Assembly (NCBI RefSeq): GCF_000302535.1
Contig: NC_018708.1
Coordinates: 744,001 to 808,000, forward strand
Reading direction: 5' to 3'
Source of the DNA: Acidovorax sp. KKS102
Lineage (GTDB): Bacteria > Pseudomonadota > Gammaproteobacteria > Burkholderiales > Burkholderiaceae_C
Length of the DNA stretch: 64,000 nucleotides
Made by a program: the position numbers and the translations under genes. The notes beneath the pieces are model-generated. The model saw nothing but the letters and a program-made list of their open reading frames with translations, was not told the DNA's origin and searched no databases. Shown in pieces: positions 42,592 through 51,226 of the stretch (the stretch's first letter is position 1; every line of letters starts with the position of its first letter).

Positions 42592-43665
42592 TCAAGACAG
42601 GGGCGATACCTCCACGCGCATGGCGCCCGCTGCGGGCGTGATCTGCACCCGGACCGGCAGGCCCATCGCAATGGTCTGCGCGTTGGTGTCCGTGTGCTGC
42701 GTCACCTCGCTGCAGGTGTAGCTGGCAGCCTGCCCGCTGCGCCACACCGCCAGGGCCAGCGGCAGCATCCACTGGTCCGCCAGGTGTGGGCCCAGCGCGC
42801 CGGTGCTGCGCTGGTAGGCGCGCACTTCGTCCACCAGCCGCTTGGCCACCTGCTCGGCCGACAGGCTGCGTTCGCCCAACTGGCAAAACACCTCGGTCAC
42901 CTGCGCGTACTCCAGCGTGGCGATCAGCGCATTGCCCGGCCCTTCGTTCTGGCGCGTGGGCGGCTGGCGCAGTTGTCCGCCCTCAAACGTCCAGCCCATG
43001 CGCTGGCCCAGCACCTCCAGCTCCCGCGTCGCTATGTGGCGCGCCAGGCCGGGTGCCAGCGCCTCGCCCCAGCCGTTTTGCAACGGGCCGCGCTCCAGCA
43101 CATCCACCGGCGCCAGAGGTCGGGCGGGTGTGGCAGGTGCGATGTGCGCCACCAGCTCGCCGCCCCCGGCGGGGTAAAAGCCCCGCCGCTGCAGTTGCAG
43201 TTCCAGCCCCACCCCTAGCCGCCGCACGAGCGGCGCAAAGGCGCGCTCCAGAAAATCAAACGGCGGCGCCATCGGGTTGTGCGTGCCGCCCGCCAGTTCG
43301 ACCTTGCTCGGCCCGTCGGCCAGCATCAGCGCGGGCAGCACCGTCTGCAGCACCAGCAGGCAGCTGCCTGCGGTGGCGATCTGAAAACGGTAGTCGCCCG
43401 CCCGTACGTCGCCGGGCGTGAACACCAGCGTCTGCGAGTTCAGCTCCGCGCCCTCGGCCTGCCCGCCGCACACAGCCACCGCCGCCTGCACGCAGGCCAG
43501 GTGCTGGCGCATGAGGCCCGGCTTGGGCCGCCCGGCGCGGATGCGATTGATGTGCAGCGGGCGGCCTGTGACCATGGACAGGGCCAGGCCCGTGCGCAGG
43601 ATTTGCCCGCCGCCTTCGCCGGTGGAGCCGTCGAGGGTGAGGGGCGTTACAGAGCGTTCTGTCAT
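42592..43665 (-). CDS. rtcA: RNA 3'-terminal phosphate cyclase RtcA
   Basis: ATP-dependent conversion of RNA 3'-phosphate (and 2'-phosphate) ends to 2',3'-cyclic phosphates. 357 aa. Motifs: [23 protein letters not shown] at the N-terminus, [20 protein letters not shown] (about residues 43-62), and the adenylated His in [14 protein letters not shown] near the C-terminus. Last gene of the RNA-repair operon; its start overlaps the RlaP-like gene's stop by ATGA. Confidence 0.96.
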
Positions 43666-44522
43666 GGCGATGTCTCCGCCGCACCCTTGGGGCGCTTGCT
43701 GAACCGCAGCACCGTGTCATGCAGCAGCGCATCCAGCGCGGCATGCCCAGGCACGGGCAGCGGCTGCACCGGCTCGGCCGCATCGCACGCCAGCTCGGCT
43801 TCGATGAACGCATGGATGCCAGGCCAGCGCGGGCTGGTGGCGGCTTCGCCTGCGCGCATCTTCACCTCCAGCAGGGCGTTGATCTCGGCGACCAGTGCTG
43901 CATCGTGCACGGGGTGGAGCGTGTGCTGGGCCAGCTCGGCAAAGCGCATAGGCGGCACACCGGGCTGCGTGCGTATCCAGCGCGCGGCCAGCAGCGGGCG
44001 CAGCACGTACAGGTACTTTTTGTAGCGCACCGCGTCGGCCTGCAGGTGCTCTCGAAAGTTCTTCTTGGCCATGGATGCGTAGTGGTGCCAGCCCTTGGCG
44101 TTGGAGAACACTTGCGCCGCCAGCGCGCGGAACTGCGCCATGGTGTCTGCCTCTTCGCGGTAGACGATGGGTGAGCCCAGCCATTCGAGCAGCGTGGGGT
44201 TGGACTCGCGCAGCAGGCCCAGGGCCTTGCGAAGGTCCCAGCCGTTCACATCCAGGTCGCCGCTGATCGGCAGCTCGATCACGTCACGCCCGGGCGCCAC
44301 CGTCAGGTACCAAGGCAGACGGTTCACGTAGATAAAGCGCACGTCGTAGTCGCTGTCGGGCGAGGCAAAGCCCCAGCCCCGGCTGCCGGATTCGCAGGCA
44401 AACAGCACTGTCACGTCGTTCCGGGCTTCGATGTCGCGCAGGGCTTCCAGCACCTGCGTGCGCATGTGGGGCTCCACCGGGTGGGCGGAGCGCAGCATTT
44501 CTTGTTGTTCTGTTGTATGCAT
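43662..44522 (-). CDS. RlaP-like RNA-ligase-associated nucleotidyltransferase
   Basis: 286 aa protein of the DNA polymerase beta superfamily (COG3541). The nucleotidyltransferase signature is ESGSRGWGFASPDSDYDVRFIYV at about residues 44-66: the GS...DxD pattern with both metal-binding Asp. DVNGWDLRKALGLLRESNPTLLEWLGSPIVY follows, typical of this family. RlaP proteins are known from comparative genomics to travel with RtcB/RtcA; an RNA end-modifying role is inferred. Overlaps rtcA by 4 bp. Confidence 0.88.
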   Translation of the reverse strand: MHTTEQQEMLRSAHPVEPHMRTQVLEALRDIEARNDVTVLFACESGSRGWGFASPDSDYDVRFIYVNRLPWYLTVAPGRDVIELPISGDLDVNGWDLRKALGLLRESNPTLLEWLGSPIVYREEADTMAQFRALAAQVFSNAKGWHHYASMAKKNFREHLQADAVRYKKYLYVLRPLLAARWIRTQPGVPPMRFAELAQHTLHPVHDAALVAEINALLEVKMRAGEAATSPRWPGIHAFIEAELACDAAEPVQPLPVPGHAALDALLHDTVLRFSKRPKGAAETSP

Positions 44523-44948: not shown

Positions 44949-46166
44949 TCACCCCTTCACACACACCACCTGCTTGAGCGTGTACACCACTTCCACCAGG
45001 TCTTCCTGCGCCGCCATCACCGCATCGATGTTCTTGTAAGCCATCGGGATCTCGTCGATCACGTCGGCGTCCTTGCGGCATTCCACGCCCTCGGTCGCCT
45101 TGATCTGGTCTTCCACGGTGAACAGCTTCTTGGCCTTGGTGCGGCTCATGGTGCGGCCCGCGCCGTGGCTGCAGCTGTTGAAGCTCTCGGGGTTGCCTTT
45201 TCCGCGCACGATAAAGCTCTTGGCGCCCATGCTCCCCGGGATGATCCCCAGCTTGCCCTGCTCTGCACTCACCGCGCCCTTGCGGGTCACGAACACGTCT
45301 TGCCCGAAGTGCGTCTCGCGTTGCACGTAGTTGTGGTGGCAGTTCACCGCCTCAATGTGCGTTTCGAACGGCTTGGGGATCACCTTGCGCAGCGCGGCGA
45401 TCACGCGGCCCATCATCACTTCGCGGTTGGCGGCGGCAAACTTTTGTGCCCACCCCACGGCCTTCACGTAGTCGCCGAAGTACTGCGCACCTTCTTCAAA
45501 GTACGCCAGGTCCTTATCGGGCAGATTGCGCTGGTTCATCTCGGCGTCCTTCTTGGCCAGCTCAATGAAGTGGGTGCCGATGGCGTTCCCCACACCGCGT
45601 GAGCCGGAGTGCAGCATCACCCACACGGACTGATGTTCGTCCAGGCAGATCTCGATGAAGTGGTTGCCCGTTCCGAGCGTTCCGAGGTGCTTGTAGTTGT
45701 TCGTGTTCTTGATGCGCGGGTGCGCTTCACAAATCTCGTCGAACTCATCCACCAGCGCGGCCCAGGCGCGGTCGGTCTCGGCGGGCGGCGTATCCCAGCT
45801 TCCCTTGTCGCGGCCGAAACGCTTGGGGGTCATCCCCACGGGCACGGCGCGTTCGATGGCGGTGCGCACGCCAGACAGGTTGTCCGGCAGGTCGCTGGCC
45901 GTGAGCGTGGTTTTGCACGCCATCATTCCGCACCCCAGGTCCACCCCCACCGCAGCGGGGATGATGGCCTTGAGGGTGGGCACCACCGAGCCGATGGTCG
46001 CACCGATCCCCAGGTGCACATCGGGCATCACCGCCACGTGCTTGAACACGATGGGCAGGCGCGCAATGTTGCGCAGCTGGTTCTTGGCGTCTTCTTCCAC
46101 GGGCACGCCGTTCGTCCACATCTTCACGGGCACGCCGTTCGGGATTTCGAGTTGTTCGTAGTTCAT
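44949..46166 (-). CDS. rtcB: RNA-splicing ligase RtcB
   Basis: GTP- and Mn-dependent ligase joining RNA 2',3'-cyclic phosphate or 3'-phosphate ends to 5'-OH ends. 405 aa, the size of the E. coli enzyme. Mn ligands and active site: VGVDLGCGMMACK (Cys), GTLGTGNHFIEI (His), LHSGSRGVGNAIG (His), and the guanylylated His in SHGAGRTMSR. The start at 46166 removes a 52-residue antisense-like extension. Centre of the RtcR-controlled operon. Confidence 0.97.
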   Translation of the reverse strand: MNYEQLEIPNGVPVKMWTNGVPVEEDAKNQLRNIARLPIVFKHVAVMPDVHLGIGATIGSVVPTLKAIIPAAVGVDLGCGMMACKTTLTASDLPDNLSGVRTAIERAVPVGMTPKRFGRDKGSWDTPPAETDRAWAALVDEFDEICEAHPRIKNTNNYKHLGTLGTGNHFIEICLDEHQSVWVMLHSGSRGVGNAIGTHFIELAKKDAEMNQRNLPDKDLAYFEEGAQYFGDYVKAVGWAQKFAAANREVMMGRVIAALRKVIPKPFETHIEAVNCHHNYVQRETHFGQDVFVTRKGAVSAEQGKLGIIPGSMGAKSFIVRGKGNPESFNSCSHGAGRTMSRTKAKKLFTVEDQIKATEGVECRKDADVIDEIPMAYKNIDAVMAAQEDLVEVVYTLKQVVCVKG

Positions 46167-46218: not shown

Positions 46219-47052
46219 TCATGCAGCCATTGCGTCAAAGACCGCGGTGATCCGCTCCGGGAGCGGGTAGCAATGGTGGTCCACGGCCCCCGCTGGCAAC
46301 CAGGAACTGGCAGGGCCCGCATCCACCAGCCGCATGAGCTTTTCTGTCCAACGCGCTTTGGTGGCTGGCCTGTTCAGCCATTCCTCCATGGTGCGTTTGT
46401 ATTCGACCTCATCCGTGGCAAACGCATTGCCCATCTGGTTGGAGTACCACACATAGTCCCAATAGCACGCGTCTACAAAGTTCAGGGTCGATGCGTCGCT
46501 TTCGCATTCCAGCCAGTGTTGCAGCAGGGGCTCCAGCGGCACGCGGGCATAGGCCCACATGAGCAAGATGGAGAAGGCGTTATCGCCCTGGAAGAGCGAA
46601 TCGCTGGCTGCGGGCCATTGCTCCAACCCTTGTGCAAAGTACGCCAGCGCAAAGCCCTGCAGCGCCGCCTGTTCCGTCGCTGAAAACGAACCGGGCTCGC
46701 ACCGCCCCAAGCGGTCCAGGTACAGCTCGGTGGAGTGGTGCAGCCGGGCACCTTCGGCGAGCAGTTCCAGCAGCCGTGGGGCCAGGTATTTGATCTCGCG
46801 CGCAGGCTGCACCTGGCTCTTGGCCGAATCGTTGTACTCGTAGAAATGCCTCTGGGTCAGTTGGCGCAGAGGAAGGTGTCGCATCTCACGCTCCAGCTCG
46901 GCATTCATGCAGCAGGCGGTACACACGTCCAGCAGGTGATCCGGTGCTTGGTAATGCGCAAACGCTTTGTAGGCCGCTTGTGTCGCGGCTTCCAGCACAT
47001 TGCTTGGTGTGTATTCCAATACTGAGTTGGCTCCGGTTTTCTTCTTTTTCAT
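46219..47052 (-). CDS. Unrecognised 277-aa protein of the rtc operon
   Basis: No family recognised. 277 aa, rich in aromatic residues and predicted helices; basic start MKKKKTGANS, a Cys cluster DVCTACCM (about residues 43-50), the helical stretch YLAPRLLELLAEGARLHHSTELYLDRLG, and a Trp-rich segment FVDACYWDYVWYSNQMG. No signal peptide or membrane span. It lies between the 233-nt tRNA-like RNA and rtcB on the same strand, suggesting a role in RNA sensing or handling. It is not a Ro60/TROVE homologue by length or visible motifs. Confidence 0.8.
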   Translation of the reverse strand: MKKKKTGANSVLEYTPSNVLEAATQAAYKAFAHYQAPDHLLDVCTACCMNAELEREMRHLPLRQLTQRHFYEYNDSAKSQVQPAREIKYLAPRLLELLAEGARLHHSTELYLDRLGRCEPGSFSATEQAALQGFALAYFAQGLEQWPAASDSLFQGDNAFSILLMWAYARVPLEPLLQHWLECESDASTLNFVDACYWDYVWYSNQMGNAFATDEVEYKRTMEEWLNRPATKARWTEKLMRLVDAGPASSWLPAGAVDHHCYPLPERITAVFDAMAA

Positions 47053-47076: not shown

Positions 47077-47309
47077 TGGTGGACGCGACGGGATTCGAAC
47101 CCGCATCAATACAGCGACCAGGGTGCTTGAATCCACTGGCCCAGTGAACGGTTGGAAACGCGCGCCAGTGGCAGACCCTTCATCGGAGCCAGCACCTGCA
47201 TCCTCAACTTTGCCCGTTCACCGACTCTCCCGCTGTACTCGGTGTTACCCGAGCTGCCCGCAATAACAACATTTTTGGCAGTGGCGCTCCCTTCTGTGCC
47301 AGCGCGCCC
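47077..47309 (-). ncRNA. 233-nt tRNA-like RNA with CCA end, pseudoknot and no anticodon arm
   Basis: Between the slipin and 277-aa genes. GGGCGCG (47309-47303) pairs over 7 positions, one G-U, with CGCGTCC (47087-47081), followed by A-CCA. The T-arm GCGGG-TTCGAAT-CCCGT (47104-47088) is canonical. After a D-like arm TGGC/GCCA come contiguous hairpins CTGCC/GGCAG (47281-47254) and CTCGG/CCGAG (47253-47238), then two crossing helices, 47214-47221 with 47144-47151 (8 bp) and 47165-47171 with 47133-47139 (7 bp), i.e. an H-type pseudoknot. Too long for tRNA, too short and without tag frame for tmRNA. Probably a tRNA mimic related in idea to bacterial Y RNAs. Confidence 0.65.
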
Positions 47310-47329: not shown

Positions 47330-48475
47330 TCAGCGCATCTTCACCAGGCCATTCAGCACCTGGTCCAGGCCGCCAAACACCGAGATCTTGTCGATGCGCT
47401 CGGCCACGCGCTCCAGCGTCTCCAGCTCCTTCATGTGCAGGGCGACGGGGTTGTCCTCCATCACCTTGGCGGTGTTGAGCAGCGAGCGCGTGGCGGCGGT
47501 TTCTTCGCGGCGGCGGATCACGTTGGCCTCGGCCTGCTTCTGGGCTTGCACCACCTGGGTCAGGATGGTTTTCATCTCGCCCGGCAGCACGATGTCCTTC
47601 ACGCCCACGCTTTCCAGCTGCATGCCATAGGGCAACAGCTTGGCGGCCATGTGTGCGGTCACCACGTCGTCGATCACCGTCTTGTTCTCCAGCAGCTCAT
47701 CGAGCGTGCGGGTGCCCACGGCGGCGCGCAGCGCAAACTGCAGCTCGCGGTACAGGTGGTCGGCAGGCTTTTGCAATTGGGCAAAAGCGCGCAGCACATC
47801 GGTGTAGCGGTAGGTGGCGCACAGGTTCAGGCGCAGGCTTACCTTGTCACGGGTCATGATGTCCTGGCCTGACACCTCCACGGCTTGCAGGCGCAGGTCC
47901 ACCAGCTCCACGGCCACAGTGCGGCCGTACTTCCAGAAGGCGTAGGTGCCAGCCGTGAGCAGGCGTTCCACCTTGCCGTCCACCGTCAGCAGGCCGCACT
48001 GGCCCTCGGGCACCTGCACCTGCAGCACACCGGCCAAGCCGGTCACGCTGCGCTGGCGCAGTTGGGTTTGCGTCAATCGCGCCACCAGTGCGGCGGGCAG
48101 TTCAGCGCCCGATTGCAGGTCCACCACTTGCACGCTCACCTCCACCAGGCCTTTCCAATAAAGGCGGCGGGTGCCGGGCGGCAAGATCTCGACCAGCACG
48201 CCGTTTTCGCTGCGCAAGCCCACTTAGGTTTCCGACAGGCTCACCTGCACAAACTCGGCGGCCACCACGGCGGGCTCTTGCGCCATCAGGTACTCGGTCA
48301 GGCCGTGGGTGAAGGCGGGTTGTTCCAGGGCGAAGGTTTCCACGCGCAACTGGTCGGTGCCCGCAAACAGCCAGTAGGTGCCGCTGCGCAGCACGCGGTC
48401 AAAGCTGCCGTTGCGCAGCAGTAGGGCGCGTTCGTTTTTCTTCACGGTGGCGCGTTGGAACATCTTCGTCAGCAT
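47330..48475 (-). pseudogene. Slipin/SPFH (band 7) protein gene split by an in-frame TAA
   Basis: A continuous 382-codon frame interrupted once, by TAA at 48226-48224. The first part (48475-48224) encodes 83 aa starting MLTKMFQRATVKKNERALLL; the second (48223-47330, 297 aa) begins with GTG directly after the TAA and carries the SPFH domain (LTVDGKVERLLTAGTYAFWKYG, ALRAAVGTRTLDELLENK, QLESVGVKDIVLPGEMKTIL, AEANVIRRREETAATRSLLNTAKVMEDNP). Slipins of this type are known neighbours of RtcB. Either a nonsense mutation (CAA to TAA would restore it), or the TAAGTG junction allows restart. First protein gene behind the sigma-54 promoter; AGAGGA precedes the ATG. Confidence 0.8.
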
Positions 48476-48762
48476 CTCTTTTTCCTCTCTCTTCTTCGTT
48501 GTCGTATCGGGTTGCCGTTACAGCGATGGCGGGGTGCCAGGGGGTGCAGCCTGGGCCTAGCAGTGCGCCGTGGTTACTGCCTCAGCCCCCAGGAGGGGAG
48601 GGCGGCAGCACGGCTGGCTGCGGGCGCGGGCTGTGCCGGGTGCTGGCACAAACCGCCGCCGGCTGACGGGGTGAATCCCTTGCGGTCGCTGCGCAACCTC
48701 GGGGCCTCTCCCCGCGTTCGGCGGGTGGTCTTTCGACCGGTACTTCCAAACAAGGTCTTGCG

Positions 48763-48833
48763 ACCGTGGGCAGGAATCGAACCTGCGACAACCGCCTTTC
48801 GGCGGGGCTCTACCAGACTGAGCTACCAGTGGT
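48763..48833 (-). ncRNA. tRNA-like unit with GAAA tetraloop in place of the anticodon loop
   Basis: 71 nt. Canonical D-arm GCTC-AGTCTGGTA-GAGC (with the loop GG used for elbow contacts) and T-arm GCAGG-TTCGATT-CCTGC. The acceptor ACCACTGG/CCACGGT pairs imperfectly (6 bp around a small internal loop). The anticodon arm is CCGCC-GAAA-GGCGG, a tetraloop, so there is no anticodon and it cannot decode. No CCA encoded. It follows the 61-nt unit head to tail and shares its last four bases. Confidence 0.7.
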
Positions 48834-48890
48834 GGCACGCCTGGAGTCGAACCAGATACATCCTTTCGGAGTGGTCACCGCGACCGTGCC
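48830..48890 (-). ncRNA. 61-nt minimal tRNA-like unit with CCA end
   Basis: GGCACG (48890-48885) pairs with CGTGCC (48839-48834), followed by ACCA. T-arm CTGG-TTCGACT-CCAG (48855-48841). Only about 29 nt lie between acceptor and T-arm: GGTC-GCGGT-GACC in place of the D-arm and TCC-GAAA-GGA in place of the anticodon arm. Shares CCGAAAGG with the following 71-nt unit. Smaller than any tRNA; most likely a tRNA mimic. Confidence 0.65.
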
Positions 48891-49030
48891 GCTACCCAGC
48901 GTTGGCGATGTGCGGCATGCAGAACATCAACAGAACCCGAAGGCCCCGGACGCCCGGCACCGGTGGGGCGAACATTTGTCCTAACCCCAGCCTGTGAGCG
49001 GTCACCGCTTGCGCTGGATGCTTCTTCTAT

Positions 49031-49046
49031 TGCCAGATGTGTGCCA
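49031..49046 (-). promoter_or_regulatory. Sigma-54 promoter of the rtc operon
   Basis: On the minus strand TGGCAC-ACATC-TGGCA: -24 GG and -12 GC separated by 10 bases, exact sigma-54 geometry (consensus TGGCAC-N5-TTGCA, one mismatch in the -12 box). The expected start is near 49021. RtcR, the sigma-54 activator, is encoded divergently at 49176. Confidence 0.9.
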
Positions 49047-49175: not shown

Positions 49176-50810
49176 ATGCGAAAAGACAAGGTGGTCATCG
49201 GGTTCCTGGGCACTCAGCTGGACTCTGGCAAGGGCGCTGGCCGGTGGGAGAAATGGCGCCCCACCGTGTCCCTGGTGCAGCATGAGGACGTGGTGATCGA
49301 ACGGCTGGAGCTGCTCTACACCCCGCCGCACCGCGAGCTGGCCCAGCAGGTGCGCGCGGACATGGCCACCGCCTCGCCCGAAACCACGGTGAACCTGGTG
49401 CCGCTGCCCATCGCCGACCCCTGGGACTTTGGCGAGGTCTATGCCCAGCTATACGACTGGACGCAGGCCTACCGCTTTGACACCGAGCGCGAGGAGTACT
49501 GGACGCACATCACCACCGGCACGCACGTCGCGCAGATCTGCCTGTTTTTGCTGGTGGAGTCGCGCCGCATTCCGGGCGTGCTGGTGCAAACCTCGCCGCC
49601 CAAGCGCCAGCAGATGGGCGACCCGGGCAGCTACACGCTGATCGACCTGGACCTCTCGCGCTACGACGTGATCGCGCAGCGCTTTGGCGCCGAGCAGCAG
49701 GACGCGGTGCAGTTCCTCAAAAGCGGCATTGCCACGCGCAACGCCCGCTTCAACGCGCTGATCGACGAGGTGGAGCGCGTTGCAGTGCGCTCGCGCGCGC
49801 CCATCCTGTTCACCGGGCCCACGGGCGCGGGCAAGTCGCACCTGGCGCGGCGCATGTTCGAGCTGAAGAAGGCCCGCCACCAGGTGGAGGGCGAGTTTGT
49901 GGAAGTGAACTGCGCCACGTTGCATGGTGATGGCGCCGCGTCCACCCTGTTCGGCCACAAGAAAGGTTCGTTCACCGGCGCGGCGGCCGACCGCGCGGGC
50001 CTGCTGCGCACGGCGCACAGAGGCTTGCTGTTCCTCGACGAGATTGGCGAGCTGGGCGCAGACGAGCAGGCCATGCTGCTCAAGGCCGTGGAAGAAAAGC
50101 GTTTCTACCCCCTGGGCAGCGACCGCGAGGTGGAGAGCGACTTTCAGCTCGTGGCGGGCACCAACCGTGACCTGCGCACCGAGGTGGCGGCCGGGCGCTT
50201 TCGTGAGGATCTGTTTGCGCGCATCAACCTCTGGAGCTATGTGCTGCCTGGCCTGGCCCAGCGGCCCGAGGACATCGAGCCCAACGTGGATCACCTGCTG
50301 CAGCGCGCGGGCGAAGAGTTGGGCCGCAGTGTGCGCTTTTCCAACGAGGCGCGCGCCGCCTACCTGCGCTATGCCCAGTCGCCCGAGGCGCTGTGGACCG
50401 GCAACTTCCGCGACCTCTCGGCCAGCGTGACACGCCTGGCCACGCTGGCCGACAGCGGCCGCATTGGCCTGCCGCTGGTCGAAGCCGAAACTGCCCGCCT
50501 GCGCTGGCTGTGGCAGCCCGCGAGCGATGCGCGCCATGGTCTGGCTCCCGTCGCAGGAGCTGTGGGGCGCGACGAACTCGCGGCTTTGCTGGGTGACGAG
50601 GTGGTGGAGTCCATGGACCTCTTTGACCAGTTGCAATTGGCCGCCGTGCTGCAAGTCTGCCGCCAGTCGCGCACCTTGTCGGACGCGGGGCGCCTGTTGT
50701 TCCAGGCCTCGCGCACGCAGCGCACCGTGATCAATGACGCCGACCGGCTGCGCAAGTACCTAGCGCGGTTTGGGCTGGACTGGGAGCGGGCATCGGGTGC
50801 TGGGCGATAA
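49176..50810 (+). CDS. rtcR: RtcR: sigma-54-dependent activator with CARF sensor domain
   Basis: 544 aa. The N-terminal CARF/RtcR domain (about residues 1-180: VVIGFLGTQLDSG, YWTHITTGTHVAQICLFLLVESRRIPG) senses RNA-derived ligands; then an AAA+ domain (about 185-420) with Walker A GPTGAGKSH, the sigma-54 contact loop GSFTGA (a GAFTGA variant) and Walker B LLFLDEIGEL; a C-terminal Fis-like HTH (SRTLSDAGRLLFQASRTQRTVINDADRLRKYL). Known in E. coli and Salmonella to activate rtcBA on RNA damage. Divergent from the sigma-54 promoter at 49031. Confidence 0.96.
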   Translation: MRKDKVVIGFLGTQLDSGKGAGRWEKWRPTVSLVQHEDVVIERLELLYTPPHRELAQQVRADMATASPETTVNLVPLPIADPWDFGEVYAQLYDWTQAYRFDTEREEYWTHITTGTHVAQICLFLLVESRRIPGVLVQTSPPKRQQMGDPGSYTLIDLDLSRYDVIAQRFGAEQQDAVQFLKSGIATRNARFNALIDEVERVAVRSRAPILFTGPTGAGKSHLARRMFELKKARHQVEGEFVEVNCATLHGDGAASTLFGHKKGSFTGAAADRAGLLRTAHRGLLFLDEIGELGADEQAMLLKAVEEKRFYPLGSDREVESDFQLVAGTNRDLRTEVAAGRFREDLFARINLWSYVLPGLAQRPEDIEPNVDHLLQRAGEELGRSVRFSNEARAAYLRYAQSPEALWTGNFRDLSASVTRLATLADSGRIGLPLVEAETARLRWLWQPASDARHGLAPVAGAVGRDELAALLGDEVVESMDLFDQLQLAAVLQVCRQSRTLSDAGRLLFQASRTQRTVINDADRLRKYLARFGLDWERASGAGR

Positions 50811-50818
50811 TCCCGCCC

Positions 50819-51158
50819 GTGAAGCACGCCAGACCGCCGCTGGTGCAATCTGGGAAACCAGGCACTGGAGGAACGTCCGGACTGCACAGGACAGCGTAGC
50901 AGCTAACGGCTGCCCACCGTGAGGTGAGGATCAGAGCAACAGAGACGAGTCCCGGGGGAGTGCCGCAAGGCAAACCACCGGGGGTGAAACGGGCAATCTC
51001 TACGCGCAGCAATACCAAGTAGGCCAGCGTTGATGTGGTTCCGCAGAGCTGGCGGGTAGGTAGCACCGAGCCGTGGTGGCGACACCCGGCCCAGATTAAT
51101 GGCGGTCACACTGCGGGCAACCGTGGTGCACAGAATCCGGCTTATCGGCGCGCTTCAC
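50819..51158 (+). ncRNA. rnpB: RNase P RNA (class A)
   Basis: Catalytic RNA maturing tRNA 5' ends. Conserved regions: GAGGAACGTCCGGACTGCAC (CR I, around 50870), GGGTGAAACGGGCAATC, CAGATTAATGGCGG and ACAGAATCCGGCTTAT (CR V). The ends pair as helix P1: GTGAAGCACGCC (50819-50830) with GGCGCGCTTCAC (51147-51158), one mismatch. About 340 nt, normal for type A. No U-run terminator is visible right behind it. Exact ends are inferred from P1. Confidence 0.95.
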
Positions 51159-51226
51159 ACTTTATTTCCACCCCGACTCGCCAAGGGTCGTGTGGTGAGC
51201 ACGCCGCCCCTGTGGCGGGGCTGTGT

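Follow-up and report, generated by a model that had tools for sequence, protein, structure and literature searches.

The RNA-repair locus and its tRNA-like leader

The window analysed here, a 64,000-nucleotide stretch of the Acidovorax sp. KKS102 genome (NC_018708.1, positions 744,001 to 808,000), contains an RNA-repair operon on its minus strand. Along that strand, a sigma-54-like site is followed by two tRNA-like units (unit 1 and unit 2), a slipin frame, a third conserved RNA, a gene for a 277-aa protein, rtcB, rlaP and rtcA. The divergent rtcR, the predicted sigma-54-like site and the presence of both RtcB and RtcA identify an RtcR/sigma-54 RNA-repair operon, with the following components:

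49176..50810, plus strand: rtcR, RNA-repair transcription activator, divergent from the operon (RtcR domain PF06956, E 1.9e-82; sigma-54 AAA+ domain PF00158)
49031..49046, minus strand: sigma-54 promoter-like site TGGCACACATCTGGCA, the base before the -12 GC being non-consensus
48224..48475, minus strand: 83-aa N-terminal part of the slipin frame, closed by an in-frame stop
47330..48223, minus strand: main piece of the slipin/SPFH (Band 7) protein (PF01145, E 5.1e-27)
46219..47052, minus strand: operon protein of 277 aa, start inferred; no family match in Pfam (searched with a longer frame), NCBIfam or PADLOC
44949..46166, minus strand: rtcB, RNA ligase, start inferred (PF01139, E 4.7e-129 on the longer frame)
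43662..44522, minus strand: rlaP, encoding the RNA-repair nucleotidyltransferase RlaP (PF10127, E 5.1e-91)
42640..43620, minus strand: rtcA, RNA 3'-phosphate cyclase (PF01137, E 4.8e-75)

Within the named collection, the closest relatives of this rtcR come from Acidovorax. RtcR is present in 27 of 47 genomes of the genus and slipin in 25 of 47, the genome studied here being included. Its slipin frame is split by an in-frame stop (48226-48224, minus strand) into pieces of 83 and 297 aa. The frame is open across this position in the other 24 Acidovorax genomes with a slipin match (385-457 aa), and the stop may be a sequencing error or a point of restart. Homologues of the 277-aa protein were found by tblastn in some slipin and some slipin-free loci, and in others none was seen. 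Directly 3' of rtcR lies an RNase P RNA gene (50821-51160, plus strand, 206.8 bits); RNase P RNA also falls inside the fetched stretches of two of 12 loci scanned (L063 and L069).

The region between the sigma-54-like site and the 277-aa gene carries a series of RNA elements, all on the minus strand:

48507..48922, minus strand: conserved leader RNA of ~415 nt (alignment A3, 79% mean column identity)
48912..48920, minus strand: GCATGCCGC, on the 5' side of the leader RNA; its UGCCG is predicted to pair with the 3' end
48830..48890, minus strand: unit 1, reduced tRNA-like RNA of 61 nt with acceptor, D-like arm, GNRA hairpin, T-arm and encoded ACCA
48767..48828, minus strand: unit 2, tRNA-like RNA with a core of 62 nt, canonical D- and T-arms and a short acceptor (RF00005, 35.9 bits; covariation)
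48754..48765, minus strand: GNRA hairpin GGTC-GCAA-GACC, immediately 3' of unit 2, with two-sided changes in 2 of 4 pairs
48711..48738, minus strand: hairpins GGTC-GAAA-GACC and CCCGC-CGAAC-GCGGG, all nine pairs invariant in 19 leaders
48513..48524, minus strand: GCTGTAACGGC, close to the leader RNA 3' end, found in 28 of 28 leaders
47077..47226 (about), minus strand: third conserved RNA, in which a covarying 11-bp stem precedes a tRNA-like 3' end (T-arm, TCCACCA)

A sequence-only reading of this DNA had placed two tandem tRNA-like RNAs lacking an anticodon in an RtcR/sigma-54-controlled leader. Both units were indeed found there, on the minus strand, with the sigma-54-like site upstream (49046-49031) and rtcR divergent. 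Unit 1 opens with a 6-bp acceptor (GGCACG/CGTGCC), followed by a 3-bp D-like arm whose loop contains GG, a 3-bp GAAA hairpin in the anticodon position and a 5-bp T-arm; its encoded ACCA directly abuts unit 2. In unit 2 a CCGCC-GAAA-GGCGG stem takes the place of the anticodon arm, the acceptor has three sure pairs (TGG/CCA) and the CCA tail is not encoded. The likeness to tRNA (RF00005) lies in the D-arm, the T-arm and the cloverleaf layout, and unit 2 scores above the gathering threshold of that model (35.9 against 29 bits). Differences lie in the GNRA-capped stem at the anticodon position, the 3-bp sure acceptor of unit 2 and the reduced D- and anticodon arms of unit 1. Unit 2 thus has canonical D- and T-arms, while both units, being GAAA-capped, lack a 7-nt anticodon loop on a 5-bp stem, and both lack a 7-bp acceptor with CCA tail. 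Apart from unit 2 (as tRNA), Rfam 15 finds nothing in the leader at threshold, and ARAGORN calls a tRNA nowhere in the window. Folding energy is unremarkable relative to shuffled sequences (z of -0.52 for unit 2 and +0.14 for unit 1) and by itself gives no signal, so the case for the unit structures is a comparative one.

The anatomy of the units varies among related loci. Reading by eye, the unit 1 loop in the anticodon position could be made out in 20 distant loci and measures 4-6 nt in 17 of these, the exceptions with a 7-nt loop being L188, L195 and L197. Unit 1 is too reduced to read in several further distant loci, and several copies show no or a poor unit 1 cloverleaf (e.g. L036, L163, L164, L166, L167). 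Unit 2 keeps a 7-nt loop, often CUNNUAA, in 24 to 26 of 36 copies elsewhere (also read by eye, the figure depending on how a sixth pair is counted). Its acceptor appears as TGGA/TCCA, TTCGA/TCGAA, TTTTCCA/TGGAAAA or GTTCGA/TCGAAC. Loci from Variovorax contain a single unit only.

Covariation of the units and extent of the leader RNA

Covariation and conservation had been named in the sequence-only reading as the means of checking the units, and both were found. Alignment A1 comprises 33 leaders (the window and 32 relatives, the single-unit Variovorax type being left out), and RNAalifold, run on it without guidance, draws two tRNA-like domains. For the structure described above, 96.3% of cells pair and 19 of 36 pairs show two-sided changes. 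The number of two-sided cells is 109, compared to a shuffle mean of 36.0 and with none of 500 shuffles as high; versions of the structure slid along the alignment yield 15 or fewer. Compensatory change is seen in the unit 1 acceptor, D-like stem and T-arm, as well as in the anticodon-position stem of unit 2, and the D-arm pairs of unit 2 are invariant across the 33 leaders. Alignment A2 extends unit 2 across families (34 loci; L173, L179, L181, L183, L185, L188 and L196 left out). Here 90.1% of cells are paired, with 129 two-sided cells versus 35.7 in shuffles and none of 500 as high. The count of two-sided pairs in A2 is 14, a value reached by 18 of 500 shuffles.

Conservation in close relatives reaches beyond the units. 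Neither this wider leader (48922-48507) nor the third RNA (47226-47077) figured in the sequence-only reading. Both end motifs are present in 28 leaders, GCTGTAACGGC on the 3' side and, on the 5' side, GCATGCCGC in 27 and GTATGCCGC in one. Alignment A3 takes 19 of the 28, with common blocks running from GCATGCCGC to GCTGTAACGGC. Two-sided changes occur in 18 of its 97 predicted pairs, 10 of which belong to the units and the following hairpin. Further pair types in A3 number 49 versus 50.8 in shuffles, with 443 of 500 shuffles as high, and the invariance of the nine pairs at 48711..48738 speaks neither for nor against pairing. In Acidovorax and Delftia much of the remaining leader is conserved like the units, and the slipin coding sequence equally so.

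A closing helix UGCCG/CGGCA, predicted in Acidovorax and Delftia, found no support across families: a locus's own core occurs in 20 of 29 loci, compared to 264 of 482 tests (55%) with different, foreign cores (4 of 33 loci were dropped, the motif being absent from the searched stretch). Since this helix also hardly varies in A3, the fold of the whole RNA is put forward as hypothetical. An GCATGCCG- or GTATGCCG-like motif, of which 48920-48912 is the window example, precedes the first T-arm by 55-82 nt in 23 of 38 loci, with and without RtcR (fixed pattern, counted without a shuffle control). Allowing two mismatches or fewer, the pattern GGTCGAAAGACCACCCGCCG matches 8 of 300 genomes, 3 of them exactly.

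The third RNA sits between slipin and the gene for the 277-aa protein. It was aligned from the window and 17 loci, both slipin-bearing and slipin-free, of Acidovorax, Variovorax, Roseateles, Pelomonas, Mitsuaria and Hydrogenophaga. Two-sided changes are present in 6 pairs of its 11-bp stem; further pair types number 11 versus 12.3 in shuffles (498 of 500 as high). In tmRNA and other large RNAs, a tRNA-like part is found inside a longer RNA. The third RNA weakly resembles tmRNA ends, its 18.9 bits lying below the gathering score of 47, and no gathering-level Rfam match to tmRNA was obtained in the window.

Association with slipin at rtcR loci and beyond

The occurrence of the twin units was determined at rtcR and slipin loci. 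Of 80 rtcR loci, classed by tblastn with the window proteins, 43 contain slipin and 36 are slipin-free; one (L054) is unclassed, its stretch ending before the slipin position. A leader T-arm motif within 700 nt of rtcR, counted independently of any covariance model, is present in 43 of 43 slipin loci versus 1 of 36 slipin-free loci. The sole slipin-free match is either L110 (loose motif with stem) or L100 (strict motif, no proper stem), depending on the motif chosen, and both are chance matches. A covariance model of unit 2, R1, built from 34 slipin loci including the window, gave a corresponding result, matching the leader in 42 of 43 slipin loci (the miss being L073), in none of the 36 slipin-free loci, and in L054. 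R1 is not independent of the 80 loci: its training row L160 and locus L059 are one and the same stretch of DNA, and an ungapped identity of 90% or more to some training row was measured for 13 of the 43 slipin loci; the other 30, including the Variovorax loci and L115, fall below that level. The expectation that the units belong to RtcR leaders thus held for slipin-bearing rtcR loci and failed for the 36 slipin-free rtcR leaders. It is slipin, and not RtcR in itself, that the twin element accompanies.

R1 fails to distinguish unit 2 from tRNAs. It has 43 matches in the Acidovorax genome itself, presumably mostly its tRNAs, and the window unit 2 (65.4 bits), though part of the training set, ranks only 16th among them. 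ARAGORN calls several unit copies in other genomes as tRNA genes and, together with the behaviour of R1, this suggests that some copies have probably been annotated as tRNAs.

For 14 of the 36 slipin-free loci, the longest frame close to rtcR was read to see what stands there instead: 11 are Ro60-like and 3 RtcB-like. One Ro60-like frame checked by Pfam matched vWA_Ro60 (E 1.8e-17) and, just under the cut-off, TROVE (E 1.1e-4). Of 12 sister rtcR loci scanned with Rfam, 8 score at or above the YrlA gathering threshold, mostly loci of the Ro60 type, and YrlA is placed after the Ro60-like gene in these operons. Among the eight is L090, a slipin locus that also carries the leader units, so slipin and YrlA are not strict alternatives.

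A search for slipin also covered two overlapping genome sets, 300 from the order and 398 from the phylum, with 26 and 23 matches, respectively, at E 1e-40 or better. From the phylum, 40 slipin regions of up to 11.4 kb each were taken. Within 760 nt before slipin, a T-arm is present in 38 of the 40 and a pair of T-arms 20-85 nt apart in 33 of the 40, the scored pairs in L175 and L176 coming from array tRNAs or another hairpin. Among 800 shuffles, 41 gave a T-arm and none gave a pair, and the antisense strand ahead of slipin has T-arms in 0 of 40 regions. Regions without a scored pair include L196 (only 92 nt of leader available), L183 (partial slipin match), L169 and L170 (unit 1 T-loop visible but weaker) and L173, L180 and L185 (no T-arm pair at this spacing). 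The window shares this arrangement, a close T-arm pair standing upstream of slipin on the same strand. Named examples with pairs are Burkholderia cenocepacia (L202) and Photobacterium (L203). Subdoligranulum (L204) has two T-arms 24 nt apart, with a GTATGCCG preceding them.

E. coli (L200) and Citrobacter (L201) show one T-arm close before slipin, with a fragmentary R1 match of 12.6 bits. A sigma-54-like site also lies in their slipin leaders, an RlaP gene follows slipin, and rtcR is divergent in Citrobacter. Among 5426 complete E. coli genomes, a query spanning slipin and leader (L200, 4300-5873) has matches in 1627, and in 1621 of these at least 80% of the query is covered.

RtcR lies within the stretch read, which for some loci ends at a contig end, in 16 of the 40 slipin regions, and is directly divergent in 13. 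A sigma-54 site that 1 or fewer of 100 shuffles match was found in 13 of 15 loci with RtcR nearby and in 0 of 23 others (38 loci scored; L188, whose RtcR is over 5 kb distant, is counted among the others). Among the RtcR-near relatives, 12 of 15 loci score 14-15 of 15 for this site and one more scores 13. As the twins occur both with and without RtcR in the stretch read, twin units and slipin appear to travel together regardless of it. Some loci also have arrays of tRNA genes called by ARAGORN: L174 has 20 calls, two of which are the twin units; L161 has 8, and L163 and L175 have 5 apiece, with unit 2 accounting for one call in each of these three. Beyond rtcR, there are 18 calls in L090, 8 in L107 and 10 in L110. 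These arrays look like spare tRNA sets.

Possible roles of the twin units

On the comparative sequence evidence, we consider it nearly certain that the leader contains a twin tRNA-like RNA that is conserved and associated with slipin. With related twins ahead of slipin genes in many bacteria, this looks like an undescribed RNA family linked to the tRNA-damage response. A literature search returned no description of the twin units, although an earlier mention is possible. In Anabaena a repressor controls the tRNA-gene trn operon, rtcB and a slipin gene as the TrcR regulon (PMC10272220). That system differs in having tRNA genes and a repressor rather than RtcR, and a tRNA-like slipin leader goes unmentioned in the passages of that paper describing the regulon.

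The reading we tentatively favour, at somewhat less than even confidence, is that the units are tRNA mimics, a decoy or docking RNA co-induced in the response to tRNA damage. The RNA would be made under RtcR when tRNAs are damaged, would be released from the mRNA, in part or in whole, and would then act as a pair of tRNA mimics. Enzymes that handle or cut tRNAs might bind the units without decoding, GNRA-capped forms might escape anticodon cleavage, and the slipin could be the membrane partner of this RNA, with RtcB, RtcA and RlaP meanwhile repairing the real tRNAs. Both units keep the elbow (the D-loop GG and the T-loop), while unit 1 is usually devoid of a usable anticodon loop and unit 2 of a full acceptor. 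Enzyme binding without decoding is what such a combination would lead one to expect, and an intact elbow with no usable anticodon loop would have the look of a decoy or docking RNA. The RNA-repair genes that share the operon were likewise counted in favour of mimicry, as was the presence of YrlA, another elbow-bearing RNA, in sister operons. Several observations count against it: the 7-nt loop retained in most unit 2 copies elsewhere is a poor fit to a nuclease-proof decoy; leader and slipin coding sequence are alike conserved in Acidovorax and Delftia; Variovorax has single units; L090 has YrlA as well; with its own model, unit 2 does not outscore the tRNAs of the genome; and the slipin frame is interrupted.

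The position of the units upstream of slipin, on the same strand in the loci seen, is as expected of a cis element and also argues against mimicry. The main rival is accordingly a cis-acting leader, which we regard as rather unlikely, though the strand bias (antisense 0 of 40) and the leader conservation in Acidovorax and Delftia keep it foremost among the alternatives. The units would here function within the slipin mRNA in processing or sensing, being cut or bound by RNase P, RNase Z or CCA-handling enzymes such that the stability or translation of the operon is set by the state of tRNA processing. This is consistent with a location roughly 200-600 nt ahead of slipin and with the abutting of unit 1 ACCA and unit 2, reminiscent of dimeric tRNA precursors, where one tRNA directly abuts the next. 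It fits less well with a slipin distance that varies among loci, a spacer sequence that (by eye) differs between families and a closing helix unsupported across families. Alternatively, units or their fragments might be ligands for the CARF-like domain in RtcR, through which the operon would be tuned or switched off. RtcR has been reported to respond to damaged tRNAs (PMC7790460) and rtcR is directly divergent in 13 of 40 slipin regions. Such a feedback ligand is nevertheless improbable given that twins exist with neither RtcR in the stretch read nor a sigma-54 site above chance (0 of 23), and that slipin-free rtcR leaders are devoid of twins.

A relationship to Y RNAs was considered by comparison with YrlA. 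The Y RNAs of rsr-yrlBA-rtcBA likewise place a tRNA-elbow RNA in an RtcR-controlled RNA-repair operon; the present locus differs in canonical arm order, two tandem units, a position in the leader before slipin and no Ro60 gene found. Across the junction, the unit 1 T-arm and the unit 2 D-arm do stand in YrlA-like order, and could in principle form a permuted YrlA-like module, analogous to or descended from a Y RNA, that serves as scaffold for a protein machine. A weak YrlA match (RF02553, 28 bits, E 0.0072 in a 6.3-kb search) spans the junction and parts of both units, and YrlA itself is present in sister rtc operons. The match remains below the gathering score of 69, short of what would identify a Y RNA. 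The whole junction fold exceeds shuffles because it includes the two arms; the hairpin in its middle has one two-sided cell in 33 leaders, whereas the unit 1 acceptor covaries, and the permuted fold gave weaker counts than the tandem reading. A Ro60/Rsr gene is the typical partner of a bacterial Y RNA. That no Rsr gene accompanies the units, as the sequence-only reading had it for the window, extends to the whole genome, where neither the TROVE profile (E 0.001) nor the L063 Rsr-like protein (search run without a positive control) finds a match. We therefore hold out little hope for a Y RNA analogue. Least probable of all, and by a judgement close to dismissal, is that these are decayed or spare tRNA genes without a present role. 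Tandem layout and position are kept across the phylum sample and the units contain compensatory changes, a covariation that strains such a reading from the outset, even if R1 scores 43 places in the genome with the leader unit 16th, and tRNA arrays are kept upstream in some relatives.

Returning to mimicry, its wider form is a more doubtful proposal: a new class of ~0.4-kb RNA with paired tRNA-mimic domains that may work with a membrane SPFH protein (slipin) on damaged tRNAs, under RtcR control in some lineages and with no nearby RtcR or with tRNA arrays in others, and that may replace Ro60 and YrlA in many rtc operons. An SPFH gene, PaFlo8, is placed inside the rtc locus of Pseudomonas aeruginosa in passages of PMC13086221.

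The slipins of rtc loci gain from this analysis a concrete candidate RNA partner. A second elbow-bearing RNA in the same type of operon, with a membrane protein in place of Ro60, would provide an independent test of what Y RNAs and other tRNA mimics do in RNA-repair operons, as whatever the two kinds of elbow-bearing RNA have in common should be the function.
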